From Defluviitaleaceae bacterium (lineage in GTDB: Bacteria; Bacillota; Clostridia; Lachnospirales; WRAX01), in contig WRBU01000073.1 in the NCBI GenBank assembly GCA_009784355.1, positions 1 through 6,265 of the forward strand: a DNA stretch of 6,265 bases, in the 5' to 3' direction. Below the pieces are notes generated by a model that worked only from the letters and a program-made list of their open reading frames with translations, was not told the DNA's origin and did not search any database. Below, piece by piece: positions 1 through 6,265 of the stretch. Made by a program: the position numbers and the translations under genes. Within the stretch, counting starts at the first letter, position 1. Each line of letters begins with the position of its first letter.

Positions 1-1736
1 GTATCATTCCAATATGCAAGCAAAACTTGATAAACATCATATTTATCAAGCAATGTTATGGGTTCAAATTGGCACAAAATTTCTTCTGCTAGTTCGTTTA
101 TCAAGGCTTTTATGTTTGTGTCGTTATTAATTCCTGTGAGTTTGTTCCACGCAAAAGACTTCCACGCTTCCGTTGCGTCATCAATGCGGTCAGCATACGC
201 AGAAAACTCGCTATCTGCATAGATAGTATGAGATATTTCTTCTTTGGGAAGAGCCGATGAACAGAAATCATCGCGCAATGGCGTGAACAGTACGCGGTTA
301 AGGTTTGGAAACAGCTCCCAATACTTTGACAAGCTATCCACATCAACGGAAGGAATGCCACCATTCAAATGCCCGTCGATGTTTTGCAAATCCTCGGCGG
401 TGCTACTGTCAATATAGCGAGGAATATTGAGATTGTAATCGTTGCGCTCGATTTCAGAAAGGGGCACAAAGCGAGAAAATTTTTCATCTTCTCGCCATTC
501 AAGAAATGCGCTGACAATTTTGTATATATCACGTTCACGAAGTCGGTTTTTGTTACCGTCTTTCATAAAGCCGCGACTTCCGTCAATCATAAAGATGCCG
601 CTTCTGCTCCCTGCACCTTCTTTGTCAAGAACAATTATGCAGGCAGGTATGCCTGTTCCATAGAACAGGTTGGCAGGCAATCCGATTATCGCTTTGATAT
701 AACCTTTTTTGATGAGTGAAGCCCGAATAGTTGCCTCGGCATTGCCGCGAAACAGTACCCCGTGCGGCAAGATACACGCAGCTTTGCCGCTTGACTTCAT
801 AGACTTGACTATGTGCATAAGCCAAGCATAATCCCCGTTTTTTTCAGGAGGAGTCGCACCATAACCATCAAAACGACCATACTCATTGCCAACGATTCCA
901 GCAGTCCAGTTTTTCATAGAAAATGGAGGATTTGCAACGACATAATCAAATTGTTTTAGCTCTGTATTGTCAGCATTTTTGAAATATTGTGGGTCTGAAA
1001 ATGTATTCGCATTGCCAACAACATCGGCAGACGCTTTATTGTGCAAAACGAAGTTCATTTTCGCCAAACCAGCGGTTGCGATGTCTTTTTCTTGCCCGTA
1101 AATAGTGACTTCAACTGGGGCAACATCAGCAGCCCTTATTAACAGAGAACCTGAGCCGCAAGCTGGGTCGTATACAGTTGTTTCTGTGCTTTTCGCCTTG
1201 TCTATTCCGATAATATTTGCAATAATACGCGACACTTCGGCAGGCGTGTAAAACTGACCTTTGCTTTTGCCACTTTCTGTGGCAAAATTTCTCATTAAAT
1301 ATTCATAGGCATCGCCAATAATATCATCCCCATCGGCCCTATTGCGTGAAAAGTCTAACTCTGGACGCTGAAAAATTGCAACAAGTCCAGTGAGCTTATC
1401 CACCTGCTCCTTGCCTTTACCGAGTTTCGTTTCATCATTAAATTTTGCATTGGTTATAACATTGCGCAACCCGTTTGCTTCGGCAAGTTTGCTGATAACA
1501 ACATCCATTTCCTCGCCAATGTTATCCTTGCCTTTTACTGCAACAATATCGTCAAACGAGCCGCCGTCTGGCACGATGATGTCAGCCCACTGTTGCCCTT
1601 TGTACCTATCCGACACATATTTTACAAACAACATCGTAAGAATATAATCCTTATACTGCGATGCGTCCATACCGCCACGCAGTTTATCGCAACTCGCCCA
1701 GAGGCTGCTGTATATTTCGCTTTTCTTTACGGCCAT
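1..1736 (-). CDS. hsdM: Type I restriction-modification system, DNA adenine methyltransferase subunit M (partial, 3' end outside window)
   Basis: HsdM transfers a methyl group from S-adenosylmethionine to adenine N6 in the bipartite site chosen by HsdS, protecting self DNA from HsdR; the M2S core works in the cytoplasm. The frame is open for 578 codons from ATG at 1736 and leaves the left edge without a stop. The N-terminal helical HsdM_N domain covers about residues 5-140 (begins MAVKKSEIYSSLWASCDKLR). The N6-Mtase domain follows, from about 150 to 460: GQFYTP at 160-165, SAM-binding motif I DPACGSGSLL at 190-199, and catalytic motif IV NPPF at 269-272. All key residues are present and nothing is broken. 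A GGAG ribosome binding site lies 9 bases upstream. The family usually exceeds 600 residues, so the missing part is C-terminal. The hsdS and hsdR partners are expected further left. It diverges from the nuclease-ATPase gene. The subunit assignment is firm; the target sequence cannot be read from M alone. Confidence 0.96.
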   Translation of the reverse strand, partial: MAVKKSEIYSSLWASCDKLRGGMDASQYKDYILTMLFVKYVSDRYKGQQWADIIVPDGGSFDDIVAVKGKDNIGEEMDVVISKLAEANGLRNVITNAKFNDETKLGKGKEQVDKLTGLVAIFQRPELDFSRNRADGDDIIGDAYEYLMRNFATESGKSKGQFYTPAEVSRIIANIIGIDKAKSTETTVYDPACGSGSLLIRAADVAPVEVTIYGQEKDIATAGLAKMNFVLHNKASADVVGNANTFSDPQYFKNADNTELKQFDYVVANPPFSMKNWTAGIVGNEYGRFDGYGATPPEKNGDYAWLMHIVKSMKSSGKAACILPHGVLFRGNAEATIRASLIKKGYIKAIIGLPANLFYGTGIPACIIVLDKEGAGSRSGIFMIDGSRGFMKDGNKNRLRERDIYKIVSAFLEWREDEKFSRFVPLSEIERNDYNLNIPRYIDSSTAEDLQNIDGHLNGGIPSVDVDSLSKYWELFPNLNRVLFTPLRDDFCSSALPKEEISHTIYADSEFSAYADRIDDATEAWKSFAWNKLTGINNDTNIKALINELAEEILCQFEPITLLDKYDVYQVLLAYWND

Positions 1737-1791
1737 AGTTGTGGTCTCCAAAATTTATTTTTAGTTGTCTTGATTAAACACTTTCACTATA
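1737..1791 (-). promoter_or_regulatory. hsdM leader: ribosome binding site and tentative -10 box
   Basis: Read on the minus strand, TGGAG (GGAG at 1749-1746) lies 9 bases before the hsdM ATG and is a credible Shine-Dalgarno site. A TATAGT hexamer (plus-strand ACTATA, 1786-1791) matches the -10 consensus at five of six positions and would give a leader of roughly 45 bases. I see no good -35 box at the proper distance, so the ribosome binding site is well supported and the promoter only tentative. Confidence 0.4.
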
Positions 1792-1872
1792 TTTAGGTGT
1801 TTCCAGTAGAATTTCTATATCTCTTGCCTCGCAAAAGCCAAAAACTTTTATGGTCTAACAGGTTGGCGAAAT

Positions 1873-2598
1873 TTACTTTTTGTCTCTGTAAGAAGCGAAT
1901 AAACTCAAAACCCCGATAACCCTAACAACATATTTTCTAGGGTATATCTCGCTCTCAAATGGCTCCACATCATAAGTGACCTCTCACAAGCATTTACTTA
2001 TATAAACTTCTTTATTAGTTGGTCGTAGCATAGCAAGAGTTTCTTGCAAATATTCTTGTCAGTCCTGACTATTTAGTTTGCCGATTTTGTAATGAATAGC
2101 ACTATTGCCTTTAATTGTCTGCTCAATCTATTTTAAGACTTTCGGGAGCTTCAAGCACAGGTTCAAACCAGCAAAGGTTTTGTGACATTTCGTTGTAGCC
2201 CTTTTAGTGCTTACCAGCATTCTTGTGGGGAAGCTATTTCAGTCTCCCCCTTGCCATCGAGTCCTTTTCAAGATATTTCAAAACATCCTGCTTTGGTTGC
2301 AGTGCGCCAAAAGATGTCCTGCTTTTCGCTGCAAAACTCGCAGTGCATAACAACGTTAAGTTAAACTGCAATAAATCAAGCGACAAAACGGCTTGTTTCG
2401 CACCGTCATTCGAATTTACACCTTTTCCTACATTTAATTCTACACCATAATAACGTTCTTTGTCAATAATTGACCACAAACATTTTTTCTAGCAAATAGG
2501 AAAAGAACTTGCAGGATTTTTAAGTGTTTCGCTACTTCTTCTCGAATAAAAACTTTATCGCCAACTGATTTGTTGTCGTTTTTAGTTATATTTTTCAT
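1873..2598 (-). pseudogene. Decayed protein-coding gene of unknown family
   Basis: Several neighbouring minus-strand segments read like protein but sit in different frames or are cut by stops. From ATG at 2598 a 52-codon piece contains SVGDKVFIREEVAKHLKI and stops at 2440. A second frame reads QPKQDVLKYLEKDSMARGRL, passes stops at 2234-2236 and 2204-2206, then reads NEMSQNLCWFEPVLEAPESL up to a stop at 2123-2125. Near 2130 the protein-like reading shifts frame to IEQTIKGNSAIHYKIGKL, crosses TGA at 2059-2061 and TGA at 1984-1986, continues with EVTYDVEPFESEIYPRKYVV and ends at TAA 1873-1875. If joined, the ancestor would be about 240 residues long and co-directional with hsdM. There is no Shine-Dalgarno site before 2598. 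I recognise no domain. The link between the 2598-2440 piece and the rest is the weakest part and could be chance. Confidence 0.5.
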
Positions 2599-2739
2599 TT
2601 ACAATAAGATGGTCGAGCCTAATGCAAGGAAGTTCTGTCATTTCAAGCATCTTTGCTAGCCAATTTTAGATGTTAGCGTTAGGGATATTGATGAAACGTT
2701 AAGTTCTTATGTGGAGTAAGTAACTATATACTAGTGATT

Positions 2740-2767
2740 AAAGCAGGCATAATATCGCCTGCTTTTT
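2740..2767 (+). terminator. Rho-independent terminator hairpin
   Basis: AAAGCAGGC (2740-2748) and GCCTGCTTT (2757-2765) form a perfect 9-bp stem around an 8-base loop and are followed on the plus strand by a T-rich run (TTTTTC, then ATTTT). In the opposite direction the run after the stem is poorer, so plus-strand use is more likely. No intact plus-strand gene lies upstream, only a short open tail ending at TAA 2717-2719. It may insulate the right-hand promoter from upstream transcription. The same bases also lie inside a 49-codon open stretch on the minus strand (2873-2724), so a coding origin of the symmetry is not excluded. Confidence 0.65.
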
Positions 2768-2868
2768 CATTTTGGAGTTTTGTGGAATTTTTTACAATAT
2801 AGTTTTTATCCGTATTGTTATGTATGGATTCATCAGCAAGACCAGCAAAACATCCTTCTACCAAGTTT

Positions 2869-3070
2869 CTAAATCAGGATTTGACCCGCTACCCCTTTGC
2901 GAGAGCCCGAAAAATCACGAACCTTATAACCAAAATGCTCTAAAAGGGTTATGATAGGTGGATTAAAAAGCGATTCTATGCCGCGATGTAAAAACTCTTT
3001 TACTGATTTGCGGTAGGCTTGGATGTGGTTGGTTATGGTGGTTTTCTTCGTGTTTTAAAGATATTTCCAT
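2869..3070 (-). pseudogene. Decayed small gene of unknown family
   Basis: Minus-strand frame 3054 to 2869 is open for 61 codons and reads naturally as protein, for example NHIQAYRKSVKEFLHRGIES, then FNPPIITLLEHFGYKVRDF and SGSRKGVAGQ, ending at TAG. It is closed on its 5' side by TAA (3057-3055) and contains no ATG, GTG or TTG start. The only nearby ATG (3070, reading MEISLKHEEN) lies in another frame, so at least one frameshift is needed to join them. Just downstream a third frame is open from 2873 to 2724 (NLVEGCFAGLADESIHNNTD) and may be the shifted C-terminal part. I recognise no family. The stretch lies back to back with the nuclease-ATPase gene, which transcribes away from it. Confidence 0.4.
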
Positions 3071-3137
3071 AATTGTGTATCATTTTAATTAGCAAATCAA
3101 GTCTTGATGTGAAAATAAATGTAATACACAAAATTTC

Positions 3138-3166
3138 TCGACTTTGCTGTCTTTTTGTGGTACAAT
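3138..3166 (+). promoter_or_regulatory. Sigma-70-type promoter with extended -10 for the nuclease-ATPase gene
   Basis: TCGACT at 3138-3143 matches TTGACA at four of six positions. After a 17-base spacer comes TACAAT at 3161-3166, matching TATAAT at five of six, and it is preceded by TG at 3158-3159, giving the extended -10 pattern TGnTACAAT. Transcription would start near 3173 and leave a leader of only about 27 bases before the TTG start. The upstream region 3060-3135 is AT-rich. No operator repeat or riboswitch fits in so short a leader. Confidence 0.6.
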
Positions 3167-3185
3167 TATTTTATATGTTTATGAT

Positions 3186-3190
3186 GGGAG
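3186..3190 (+). promoter_or_regulatory. Ribosome binding site that selects the TTG start at 3200
   Basis: GGGAG at 3186-3190 is followed by nine bases and then TTG at 3200. An in-frame TGA at 3182-3184 rules out any earlier start. The first in-frame ATG (3257) has no Shine-Dalgarno site and would remove the N-terminal segment GGRANKAGNTYEYKW, of a kind typical for the start of this nuclease family. TTG 3200 is therefore the best start. Confidence 0.7.
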
Positions 3191-3199
3191 CGGATATTA

Positions 3200-6100
3200 T
3201 TGGGCGAAAGCGGCGGACGCGCCAACAAAGCGGGCAATACTTATGAATATAAATGGATGCTTTTGCAGGTCTTGGAAGTTTTAAATGAGAGAATTGACTA
3301 TGTAACTATAGAGCCGCTTGGAGATGATGAAAATGGCGTTGATGCTATAATTGGATTTGAGGACTCTATAGAATTCCAGCAATGCAAAAGTAGATGCGCA
3401 AATAACGTAAATTGGAGTTTTAGTGCAGCAAAAAAATATGATTTTTTTGCTAAATGGAAGTTGCACTTGGATAGGAATCCTTCGCATAAGATACGTTTGG
3501 TGACGCAAATAACATTTTTGAAATTACAGGAACTTACCGAAAGAGCGAGAACAACAAGCGATAATCTTGTTGATTTTATTGAACAGACAAATACTAGCGA
3601 CTTACGACCACTTCGAGAAAATCTGTGTGCAGAATGGGGTTTGGATATTGGAGCTGAAAAAATCGAAAAACACGACGAAGGACGACACCCTTCTGTTTTA
3701 TTGGAAGAGAATGAGTATTATGAAGTTGATAGGGGTAAATTTGTAAACTTGCTCAAAAGAATTTATGTGGAGCAAACATCAGAAGAAAGCATTGATAGGC
3801 ACGTAAATAACGCAATTAGACACCTATTTGTGGGCAACCCAAAAGATGCACGCGATGTCCTTTGGTCGTGGATTCAAGAGGGTGAACGATGGTCGAAAAA
3901 GATTGATGTTACAGCTATTCGTAGTTTTATTAAGCAGAGGGGATTACAGCTTCAAGATTTAGCAAATGACGATAAAATTTTTCCAGCTATCGAAACGCTA
4001 AATGAACAGTTTCGCAGTAGTTATTATTCATTGGAAGGCAATATTTTTCAACGTGAAGAGTTTGCAAAATGCCAAGAATATATCAAGAATGGAAAATCTA
4101 TCATAGTACACGGCAAGGCAGGTAGTGGCAAAAGCGGGTGCGCTCGATATATTGCCAATTACTGCGAGGATAATGACATCCCATATGTCGCGGTTAGGCT
4201 TGACCATAGAATTCCAAAAGATAATTCTAAGGCTTGGGGTATAAGCCTTGGCTTGCCAAACTCATTGGCTCATTGCATAAATGCAATATCTAAAAACCGA
4301 AATGCAGTTATCATATTAGACCAACTTGACGCTTTACGATGGACAGCATCTCGCTCGCCCGAAGCCGTTACTGTCTGTAATGAAATCATTGAAAGTGTCA
4401 AATGCTTTAATACGATACGCAATCACAACATATCCGTTGTGCTAGTTTGTAGAACAAGCGACTTGGAGTTCGACAACAGGATAAAGAAATTGATTACTAG
4501 CGACACACATAAGCAAGATAACGAGGTTTGGATGAAAGTAGATATTGGTGAGCTTTCTAACGAGTTTGTAGGGAATTTTGTTGGCGATACATATGCTGCT
4601 TTTCCGATACGTCTGAAAAATCTCCTAAAAACAGTGAGCAATTTACAGATTTGGAGCAAGCTGAAGTCAAATAAGAAAGATAGTAATATCACAACTACTT
4701 TGAATCTTGTAAAAGCGTGGTGGAATCAAATTCTGGAGGATTGTGTTGCTACGGAATTTTCTAGCAATGAAATGAGTTTGGCTAAAAATGAATTTGTAAA
4801 ACTTTGTGAGAGTCGAGGACGTACGTCAATACGCTATGACTTGATGAATAATTATAAGAATGCAGTCGAATATTTGATTTCAAACGGATTTATCAGAAAT
4901 AATGACGATACACTTTCTTTCGCACATCAAACAATATTAGACAGTTTTTTTGCAGAAAAAATGGAGAGTGACTATTTTGAGCAAAAGAAATCCGTTATTG
5001 ACACAATAGGCTTAAAGGTTAATCAAACGCCCACTAAACGATTTCAAGTGCAAATGCTTTTACAAAACCTTGTAGAAAGCGGGACATCAGAGTTCCTAAG
5101 ATTTGGAGAAGCGATGCTTGAAAGCGACAATATACGCTTTATGATTAAATCGCTGTTTTTCGAGATTTTTACACAGCTGCCAGAAGGTGATAAAAGTGCA
5201 GAAGCCTTTGTTATAAATTATGTCGAAAAAGGTACATATGCCATTCAATTTATTAACAATGTTTTATTTTCAAGACCAGACTTCGTCCGCATATTGATGC
5301 ATACAGGAATATTAGATAAATGGATGAAAGAAGATGCAGAAAAAGCCAATTCGACTGCTCGCTTGGTATCTTCAATAGGTAGCAATTACACAACAAGCGA
5401 GATTGCATTTATAAGAAAACACGCAACTTCTGCCGAAGACGCAAAGCGTTTTGAATGGGCTTTTTCTCGTGGCATTGAAAACGATAGCGATGATTTCTTT
5501 GAGCTAAAACTTGAACTTTTTTCACAATTTCCAAATTTGAATATGCTACCATTTTTTGACCTTAGAAATACAATAAGTGTATGTCCTATAAAGTCAGCTA
5601 AACTTATGTCTCTAGCTCTTAAAGATAAATTCAAAGGCAGGGGCAGGCGTAAGGATTATTTTGTTGAAGGTTATTTAGAAAAGCTCGGTAAAAACATATT
5701 TTTAGGCAAAGGACTGCAAGTGGTTGAAATTCTTCTACCTCTTCTGCCCATTAGAGACGAAATTTCGTATGATTGGCGGCAAAATGGCAATGACTACAAC
5801 GGAAGTCTTGAGCGTGCTTGTGTTGATATTATTAAATATGCTGGAATAGAGGCGTTCACGAATGACCCGAATGTCTTTTGGAGAGTTTTTGAAAAGTATT
5901 TGGGGTTGGGGAGTTGTCTGCATAACGAAATAATCTTGTATATGTTTGCAAATGTTCCGAATCTCAATAGTGACAGAATTATTGCGTATTTATGCAAAGA
6001 CTTAGACAAAAGCGTTTTTGAAAAAACAAGTGGCGGTGATAGCTTTTTGTCATCCGCTAAAAATGCAATTAGCATTCACTCGCAACTTTGCAATGATGAA

Positions 6101-6265
6101 TCATACAAGGTTTTAGAAAAGACTATTGCTAACTATATAGCCCCAAATTCAAAATGGCATTTAGAGAGCAGGATTGAACGTAACAAAAATGCAGTCAAAA
6201 ATGGATATCGGATATATTGGAGTTTTTGGGGAGACTTGCAACACGAGCTACTCTCTTTCTTGCCA
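3200..6265 (+). CDS. Avs-like antiphage protein: N-terminal DUF4297/Cap4-like nuclease fused to a STAND NTPase (partial, 3' end outside window)
   Basis: This is a probable intracellular phage sensor and effector. The frame runs from TTG 3200 for 1022 codons and leaves the right edge open. Residues 1 to about 215 look like a PD-(D/E)xK nuclease of the DUF4297/Cap4 type: an N-terminal GGRANKAGNTYEYKW helix, D48 in NGVDAII, and IEFQQCK with E58, Q61 and K63 as likely metal and catalytic residues. The P-loop ATPase follows: Walker A GKAGSGKS at 305-312, Walker B VIILDQLD at 370-377, VLVCRTSD with R418, and a winged-helix-like segment SFAHQTILDSFFAEKM starting near 573. From about 600 onward the chain looks helical without recognisable motifs, as in the target-sensing halves of Avs proteins. 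Known Avs2/3 sense the phage terminase and Avs4 the portal, then oligomerise and cut DNA; transfer of this to the present protein is inference. There is no signal peptide or membrane segment. The Avs type cannot be set without the C terminus. Cap4 itself is unlikely because an ATPase stands where SAVED would be. Confidence 0.85.
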   Translation, partial: MGESGGRANKAGNTYEYKWMLLQVLEVLNERIDYVTIEPLGDDENGVDAIIGFEDSIEFQQCKSRCANNVNWSFSAAKKYDFFAKWKLHLDRNPSHKIRLVTQITFLKLQELTERARTTSDNLVDFIEQTNTSDLRPLRENLCAEWGLDIGAEKIEKHDEGRHPSVLLEENEYYEVDRGKFVNLLKRIYVEQTSEESIDRHVNNAIRHLFVGNPKDARDVLWSWIQEGERWSKKIDVTAIRSFIKQRGLQLQDLANDDKIFPAIETLNEQFRSSYYSLEGNIFQREEFAKCQEYIKNGKSIIVHGKAGSGKSGCARYIANYCEDNDIPYVAVRLDHRIPKDNSKAWGISLGLPNSLAHCINAISKNRNAVIILDQLDALRWTASRSPEAVTVCNEIIESVKCFNTIRNHNISVVLVCRTSDLEFDNRIKKLITSDTHKQDNEVWMKVDIGELSNEFVGNFVGDTYAAFPIRLKNLLKTVSNLQIWSKLKSNKKDSNITTTLNLVKAWWNQILEDCVATEFSSNEMSLAKNEFVKLCESRGRTSIRYDLMNNYKNAVEYLISNGFIRNNDDTLSFAHQTILDSFFAEKMESDYFEQKKSVIDTIGLKVNQTPTKRFQVQMLLQNLVESGTSEFLRFGEAMLESDNIRFMIKSLFFEIFTQLPEGDKSAEAFVINYVEKGTYAIQFINNVLFSRPDFVRILMHTGILDKWMKEDAEKANSTARLVSSIGSNYTTSEIAFIRKHATSAEDAKRFEWAFSRGIENDSDDFFELKLELFSQFPNLNMLPFFDLRNTISVCPIKSAKLMSLALKDKFKGRGRRKDYFVEGYLEKLGKNIFLGKGLQVVEILLPLLPIRDEISYDWRQNGNDYNGSLERACVDIIKYAGIEAFTNDPNVFWRVFEKYLGLGSCLHNEIILYMFANVPNLNSDRIIAYLCKDLDKSVFEKTSGGDSFLSSAKNAISIHSQLCNDESYKVLEKTIANYIAPNSKWHLESRIERNKNAVKNGYRIYWSFWGDLQHELLSFLP

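Follow-up and report, generated by a model that had tools for sequence, protein, structure and literature searches.

A Cap4-type nuclease fused to a STAND ATPase and a predicted HEAT-type arm: a probable Avs-like phage sensor with naturally exchanged effectors

Does the long open reading frame (ORF) that fills the second half of contig WRBU01000073.1, from a Defluviitaleaceae bacterium, encode a phage sensor of the Avs kind, and which of its parts would sense and which would kill? The window analysed here, 6265 bases long, is the entire contig, in a source genome of 1.43 Mb, 257 contigs and 68% completeness. The ORF encodes a predicted Cap4-type nuclease joined to a STAND ATPase and a long, predicted helical arm. 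Natural effector exchange is the strongest new evidence on its function: relatives with the same STAND-sensor body carry the nuclease of Avs4, or a third, apparently non-nuclease domain, in place of the Cap4-type nuclease. With one kind of body behind all three, that body in all likelihood works as a phage sensor of the Avs type and controls each effector.

The coding features of the window are as follows, with residue conservation counted in an alignment of 227 untruncated Cap4-type relatives.

3200..6265, plus strand: first 1022 of the 1541 codons of the Cap4-type nuclease / STAND ATPase / predicted HEAT-type sensor protein, open at the contig end
3200..3949, plus strand: predicted Cap4/DUF4297-type PD-(D/E)xK nuclease domain, residues 1-250 (AlphaFold2 model, structure matches)
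3341..3343, plus strand: codon of D48, predicted nuclease active site (D in 220 of 227, E in 5, gap in 2)
3380..3388, plus strand: codons of Q61-C62-K63, predicted nuclease active site (Q61 and K63 in 225 of 227, gap in 2)
3977..4999, plus strand: predicted STAND NTPase and winged-helix region, residues 260-600 (AlphaFold2 model; nearest solved sequences 9n00 and EfAvs5)
4112..4135, plus strand: Walker A, G305-S312 (G305, G308, G310 and K311 in 227 of 227; S312 in 226, T in 1)
4319..4330, plus strand: Walker B, D374-Q-L-D377 (D374 and D377 in 227 of 227)
4925..4930, plus strand: H576-Q577 of the winged-helix region, within F-x-HQ-S/T-I-L-D (H in 227 of 227, Q in 225)
5009..6265, plus strand: first part of the predicted HEAT-type superhelix, the putative sensor, residues 604-1022 (models, fold searches)

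The reading of 3200-6265 as a single plus-strand gene holds. The frame starts with TTG and is free of stops over 1022 codons up to the contig end, which at this base composition has a chance of about 10^-35. Residues 1023-1541 fall beyond the contig. The initial annotation had proposed extending the contig to obtain the full C terminus; it was recovered instead through P0001, a database protein of 1541 amino acids that differs from the window protein at one position in 1022 (A319S) and gives the window gene a complete counterpart.

The same annotation had described a Cap4-type nuclease fused to a STAND ATPase, with D48 and Q61-x-K63 in the nuclease and G305-S312 and D374-Q-L-D377 in the ATPase. 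All of these motifs lie where it placed them and are nearly invariant. Confident models, with a predicted local distance difference test score (pLDDT) of 86, predict that the chain folds into a nuclease of Cap4/DUF4297 type, a STAND ATPase and a superhelix of HEAT type. Structure prediction, which it had suggested as a check, yields an N-terminal PD-(D/E)xK core of Cap4/DUF4297 type, and the model of this domain matches HerA-DUF4297, Cap4, Hachiman and LmuA chains in a structure search. By models and motifs, one chain runs from effector through STAND NTPase to C-terminal arm, as in the broad Avs/AVAST group. The Pfam family nSTAND3 (PF20720) matches 15 of 30 members at E ≤ 0.01 (best 3.8e-7); P0193 scores 27.6 bits, and the window protein 20.3 bits against a curated cut-off of 27.2. 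Searched as a single sequence, the window protein brought up no informative name from the PDB or NCBIfam.

The predicted superhelix is about 940 residues long in the full protein, and this arm is the putative sensor. The early remark that the C-terminal half has no motif matching a named Avs type is supported: a profile search with the sensor half found no PDB sequence relative up to E 10. Compared alone, the arm finds its best structural matches in generic HEAT/ARM proteins, and Avs4 and Avs3 are absent among the best 50 matches listed.

Residues 1-250 are the segment that is exchanged in some relatives. Sorted with profiles built from the members of each class, 269 proteins (256 listed proteins and 13 from loci) comprise 230 with the Cap4-type nuclease, 26 with the third domain, 6 with the Avs4 nuclease and 7 that are truncated; since the protein lists favour near relatives, these shares are not frequencies in nature. 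The Avs4 nuclease came to light in an order searched with the relative P0041. The family occurs there in 11 of 225 genomes, and in four of the 11 (L044, L045, L046 and L047) the match leaves out the first part and starts near residue 239, where the nuclease gives way to the STAND ATPase. The four bodies are 52-54% identical to P0041. Their N-terminal domains are 63-68% identical, over 166-171 aligned residues, to the nuclease of the Avs4 in PDB entry 8dgf, which we take to be an E. coli protein; for L044 this domain gives E 2.2e-63. The whole L044 protein has 8dgf as its sole PDB match, best over residues 7-127, and the remaining 1277 residues of this one chimera matched no PDB chain at E ≤ 1. 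The PADLOC Avs4 model, PDLC02169, was run on three chimeras and matches each with an E of at most 4.1e-76; its best stretches in these proteins of about 1460-1630 residues begin in the nuclease and stop at residue 236, 242 or 496. In the 1626-residue chimera at L047:7843-12723 the P-loop segment is tandemly duplicated. As the DNA copies are 79% identical over 527 bases, the duplication is not a simple assembly repeat.

The third domain was found with words from the arm of another relative, P0004. That search returned 410 proteins, 120 of them listed, and added Bacillales members with an N-terminal part of about 187 residues, in Bacillus safensis, B. altitudinis, Planococcus, Exiguobacterium and Sporosarcina. 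This part starts with a glycine-bearing hydrophobic stretch, whose mean hydropathy in 19-residue segments peaks at 1.3-1.8 across six proteins, and looks helical to the eye from its sequence; that it acts on membranes is our guess. Residues 1-190 contained no Pfam family above cut-off in the five proteins scanned, and the search for a solved relative returned chance-like, mostly coiled-coil matches only (best E 0.005).

The effector labels are clustered on a tree of the bodies. This FastTree tree holds 258 bodies, after seven truncated proteins, L047 with its internal duplication and three proteins below 1200 amino acids had been dropped. Effector labels change 4 times on it, against about 30 times when shuffled, and 0 of 200 shuffles gave a count as low, which shows only that the label is clustered. 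The five Avs4-nuclease rows form a single clade (support 100, from a program that does no bootstrap and that warned of many long end branches), nested with Cap4-type rows. Third-domain rows require three changes, and three Cap4-type rows lie within their clade.

Because the Avs4 and Cap4-type nucleases join at the same interdomain place, the body most simply does the same job for both, which would be to bind a trigger, assemble and bring the nucleases together. The window protein is probably an Avs-like phage sensor in which the arm senses, the STAND ATPase assembles and the Cap4-type nuclease cuts. A phage protein would dock on the predicted C-terminal superhelix, several copies would come together through the STAND ATPase, and the nuclease at the N terminus would probably then be activated and cut DNA in the infected cell. 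Both host and phage DNA would be cut, and the cell would die or arrest. We infer this course, from phage protein binding through ATP-dependent assembly and DNA cutting to cell death or arrest, and with it the kind of trigger, from the three-part order, conserved catalytic and P-loop residues and effector-exchanged relatives seen in sequences, and from the nuclease, STAND and HEAT-type folds seen in models. According to PMC12931631, the nucleases of Avs1-Avs4 cut the genomes of both host and phage after the sensor has encountered a phage protein, for instance terminase or portal. DUF4297 with HerA is a double-stranded DNA nuclease whose PD-(D/E)xK residues matter for activity, and HerA-DUF4297 requires both its ATPase and nuclease sites for phage defence by abortive infection (PMC11291478).

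A first homologue search for the family gave 179 proteins at E ≤ 1e-3, and 110 of the 120 listed are 1500-1550 amino acids long. Where a source names the relative, it calls it a hypothetical protein or an ATP-binding protein or uses a name of AAA/ATPase type. Among the organisms that could be named are Paenibacillus, Sporomusa, Cohnella, Lactococcus and Clostridium and, outside Firmicutes, Fusobacterium and a Mycoplasmatota bacterium. The distribution is patchy: the family occurs in 5 of 398 genomes of a phylum sample and 6 of 391 of a class sample, the window's own genome counted in both, and in 2 of 51, 2 of 113 and 11 of 225 genomes of three orders, the phylum, class and order samples overlapping. 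Several copies are disrupted by stops or splits. No relative turned up among phage records. Ten came from plasmid records, each below 60% identity and one covering at least 80% of the query, and one of 47 pattern matches in viral contigs was a relative. The plasmid-record matches H5-H10 are Cyanobacterial and Herpetosiphon proteins that match in the STAND part only, at 20-22% identity, annotated as ATP-binding, caspase family, pentapeptide-repeat or hypothetical proteins. A literature search, made without the 2022 Avs paper, found no title or abstract start concerning this family.

Upstream of the gene, the window contains a divergent neighbour and several candidate control elements.

3..1751, minus strand: hsdM, for a type I DNA methyltransferase subunit; incomplete at the start of the window and divergent from the STAND gene (TIGR00497 274 bits, PADLOC type I methyltransferase 940 bits)
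2740..2765, plus strand: terminator-like stem-loop between hsdM and the STAND gene (consensus scan only)
3138..3166, plus strand: promoter-like site, TCGACT, 17 nucleotides, TG-preceded TACAAT (consensus scan only)
3186..3190, plus strand: Shine-Dalgarno-like GGGAG, 9 nucleotides 5′ of the TTG start (direct sequence reading)

The back-to-back hsdM, noted from the start, is genuine by both family models. Its listed start is TTG at 1751, with ATG at 1736 as an alternative. The same genome has a single HsdS-type match, on contig C199, and two of HsdR type, on contigs C27 and C53. The 1.45-kb gap at 1752-3199 has no ORF of more than 81 amino acids wholly inside, a G+C content of 35.6% versus 43.3% in hsdM, and short, two-copy, chance-like repeats only. 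Consensus scanning of 1700-3300 gave 8 promoter-like sites versus 5.2 expected in shuffles, and the terminator-like scan 3 versus 1.5, among which 2740-2765 is the one clear stem. An Rfam scan of the window found nothing.

Flanks were read as ORFs at 21 loci, of which the window is one; L029, with hardly any flank, comes in addition to these. Selected neighbours at 10 of the 21 were searched with family models. Type I restriction-modification genes lie near the window gene, L022 and L050. The neighbours at L011 are a retron II-A and Fic; at L012, Wadjet JetA, a type IV restriction enzyme spread over two ORFs and a match to AbiH that barely exceeds the cut-off; at L020, a ThsA-like SIR2 protein, an FRG protein and Fic; and at L021, AbiD. 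Three loci had no defence family: L002 with NYN, L004 with RhuM, and L019 with a trypsin-EAD7 protein and a ThiC-like protein. The last is an unusual combination: L019:3135-6917, 3′ of the STAND gene and on the same strand, codes for a trypsin-like protease that weakly matches the EAD7 adaptor, a radical SAM-like protein of the ThiC family and a 208-residue protein without a family. A Fic gene immediately precedes the STAND gene, in the same orientation and with about 70-165 bases between them, at L011:6701-7768, L020:12311-13351 and L022:4520-5560 (the last identified by eye). This arrangement spans two distinct lineages. Fic as a fixed partner was dropped, being directly upstream only at these three loci, of which L020 and L022 are from one genus. 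Other features were seen by eye: similar zeta-toxin-like kinase ORFs lie downstream of a chimera (L047:15351-15926) and of a Cap4-type gene (L048:5374-5937), and the family genes of L004 and L013 are near contractile-tail (sheath-like) phage genes. Some copies of the family may be prophage-carried.

Several results weigh against a phage sensor of Avs kind. The initial annotation had wanted the ATPase placed in a tree with Avs1-Avs5. A STAND-only profile run against the PDB served in its place, and it put 9n00 and Avs5 nearest; no Avs3 or Avs4 was among the 49 sequences listed up to E 10, so kinship with these two rests on fold. The Pfam Cap4 model, PF14130, matches 1 of 30 members (best E 9.4e-4), and the nearest PADLOC model, matched weakly in 30 of 30 members, is the candidate defence family PDC-M54A. 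None of the 95 other genomes near the window's own has the family (96 searched, including its own). A defence family lies nearby at 7 of the 10 model-searched loci, a count without a random-gene baseline from searches that left the other 11 of the 21 loci aside. The flanks of the Avs4-nuclease loci L044-L047 are, by eye, mostly ordinary genes.

How else could the protein work? It may be a divergent cousin of a named Avs type that recognises the same trigger, a large terminase subunit or portal, through a remodelled arm. The top whole-model structural matches, portal-bound Avs4 and terminase-bound Avs3, would fit, as would the Avs4 nuclease on some family members. We consider this rather unlikely. 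The sensor half has no solved sequence relative, the arm looks most like generic HEAT/ARM proteins, and PDLC02169, whose ability to match in the library searched is shown by the chimeras, matches 0 of 30 Cap4-type members at E ≤ 0.01 and not the window protein even at E ≤ 1; in the chimeras its matches stop as given above. Infection could also be sensed indirectly, via a host chaperone or a guarded host protein, as by bNACHT25. According to PMC12169576, this nuclease-bearing protein depends on DnaJ and the triggering phage coat protein is not directly bound; bNACHT25/32 likewise combine a PD-(D/E)xK DNase, inactivated by D48A, with a STAND-type switch. The superhelix of the window protein resembles the direct-binding arms of Avs3 and Avs4 more than the bNACHT sensing domains, which makes an indirect route quite improbable here. 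The bNACHT sensing domains are shorter than those arms. Finally, the protein might be a STAND-controlled nuclease whose chief targets are plasmids or other mobile DNA, or one that takes part in a regulated cell death having nothing to do with phages. The genes near phage tails at L004 and L013 could then serve a prophage's own ends. What speaks against this is that the effector is exchanged with that of Avs4 and that some members have retron, Wadjet, AbiD or type I restriction-modification genes nearby, although Wadjet is itself an anti-plasmid system, which weakens the neighbourhood point; overall we find such a role very unlikely. An Avs-like sensor of a phage protein is the reading that we prefer.

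Bacterial STAND sensors are related to animal and plant immune receptors, and their activators are hard to find. One kind of sensor with three effectors allows the trigger to be sought with the easiest read-out, and the Avs4-nuclease relatives, having the same switch and arm, make the phage-sensor idea directly testable. PDLC02169 calls proteins Avs4 through their nuclease despite a different sensor body; as the match goes through the nuclease, Avs4 counts made with this model may be inflated, mixing two specificities. It is tempting to speculate further, and here we are tentative, that these proteins form a further major Avs-like class, patchy in Firmicutes, with one HEAT-superhelix sensor for a phage protein that no known Avs reads and with swappable effectors: the Cap4 nuclease, the Avs4 nuclease or a small helical membrane-attacking domain. 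If so, nature has already run the effector swap that separates sensing from killing.

Among known systems, Avs4 (AVAST type 4; 8dgf, portal-bound) has the order effector nuclease, STAND, long arm in common with the window protein and is its top whole-model structural match; it has 1587 amino acids in the PDB versus 1541 for the window protein's twin. Its nuclease domain sits on the family body in four genomes of one order, as described. The window protein has a Cap4-type nuclease instead, its arm is predicted to be HEAT-type, and the family profile found no sequence match to 8dgf at E ≤ 1, nor did the window protein match Avs4 in sequence. Avs3 (8dgc, terminase-bound), the top structural match beside Avs4, has a longer chain (2004-2028 residues in the library) and no sequence match to the family. 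Avs1, Avs2 and Avs3 PADLOC models, which we take to be in the library, were not among the matches of the window protein and 30 members. Avs5 (SIR2-STAND; 9jap) has an nSTAND3-type switch, as PMC12931631 describes, in common with the family. Around the P-loop no other named Avs comes as close in sequence (E 1.6e-4, STAND profile), and Avs5 has 22% identity to the window model over 177 structurally aligned residues. Unlike the family with its nuclease, Avs5 has a SIR2 effector, an 869-residue chain and another arm, and no SIR2 family was among the matches of 30 members at E ≤ 0.01.

The nearest solved sequence over nuclease and STAND together is that of 9n00/9n01/9yix ('AAA family ATPase', 1523 amino acids), with E 1.8e-8 for 9n00 by the whole profile and 4.1e-12 by the STAND profile. 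The arm of 9n00 does not match the family's arm, and a literature search found no paper naming these entries. HerA-DUF4297 and CBASS Cap4 are alike in the nuclease domain only, their partners being HerA and a SAVED domain, not a STAND ATPase. A CBASS Cap4 effector was rejected, as no SAVED family was among the matches and a STAND ATPase and helical arm follow the nuclease instead. PDC-M54A matches the STAND region of P0001, and a second model of that name matches 67 arm residues; the PDC-M54A models, 1144-1657 residues long, are matched only partly. Full-length membership was rejected, the best stretch in P0001 being 382 residues of a 1621-residue model. Effector variation is already a feature of Avs families, which makes the exchange less surprising. 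The window protein belongs to an unnamed Avs-like family, set apart from Avs4 by sequence tests and from Avs5 by its effector, and what is new in it is an unplaced HEAT-type sensor, a direct exchange with Avs4 and a third, apparently non-nuclease effector.
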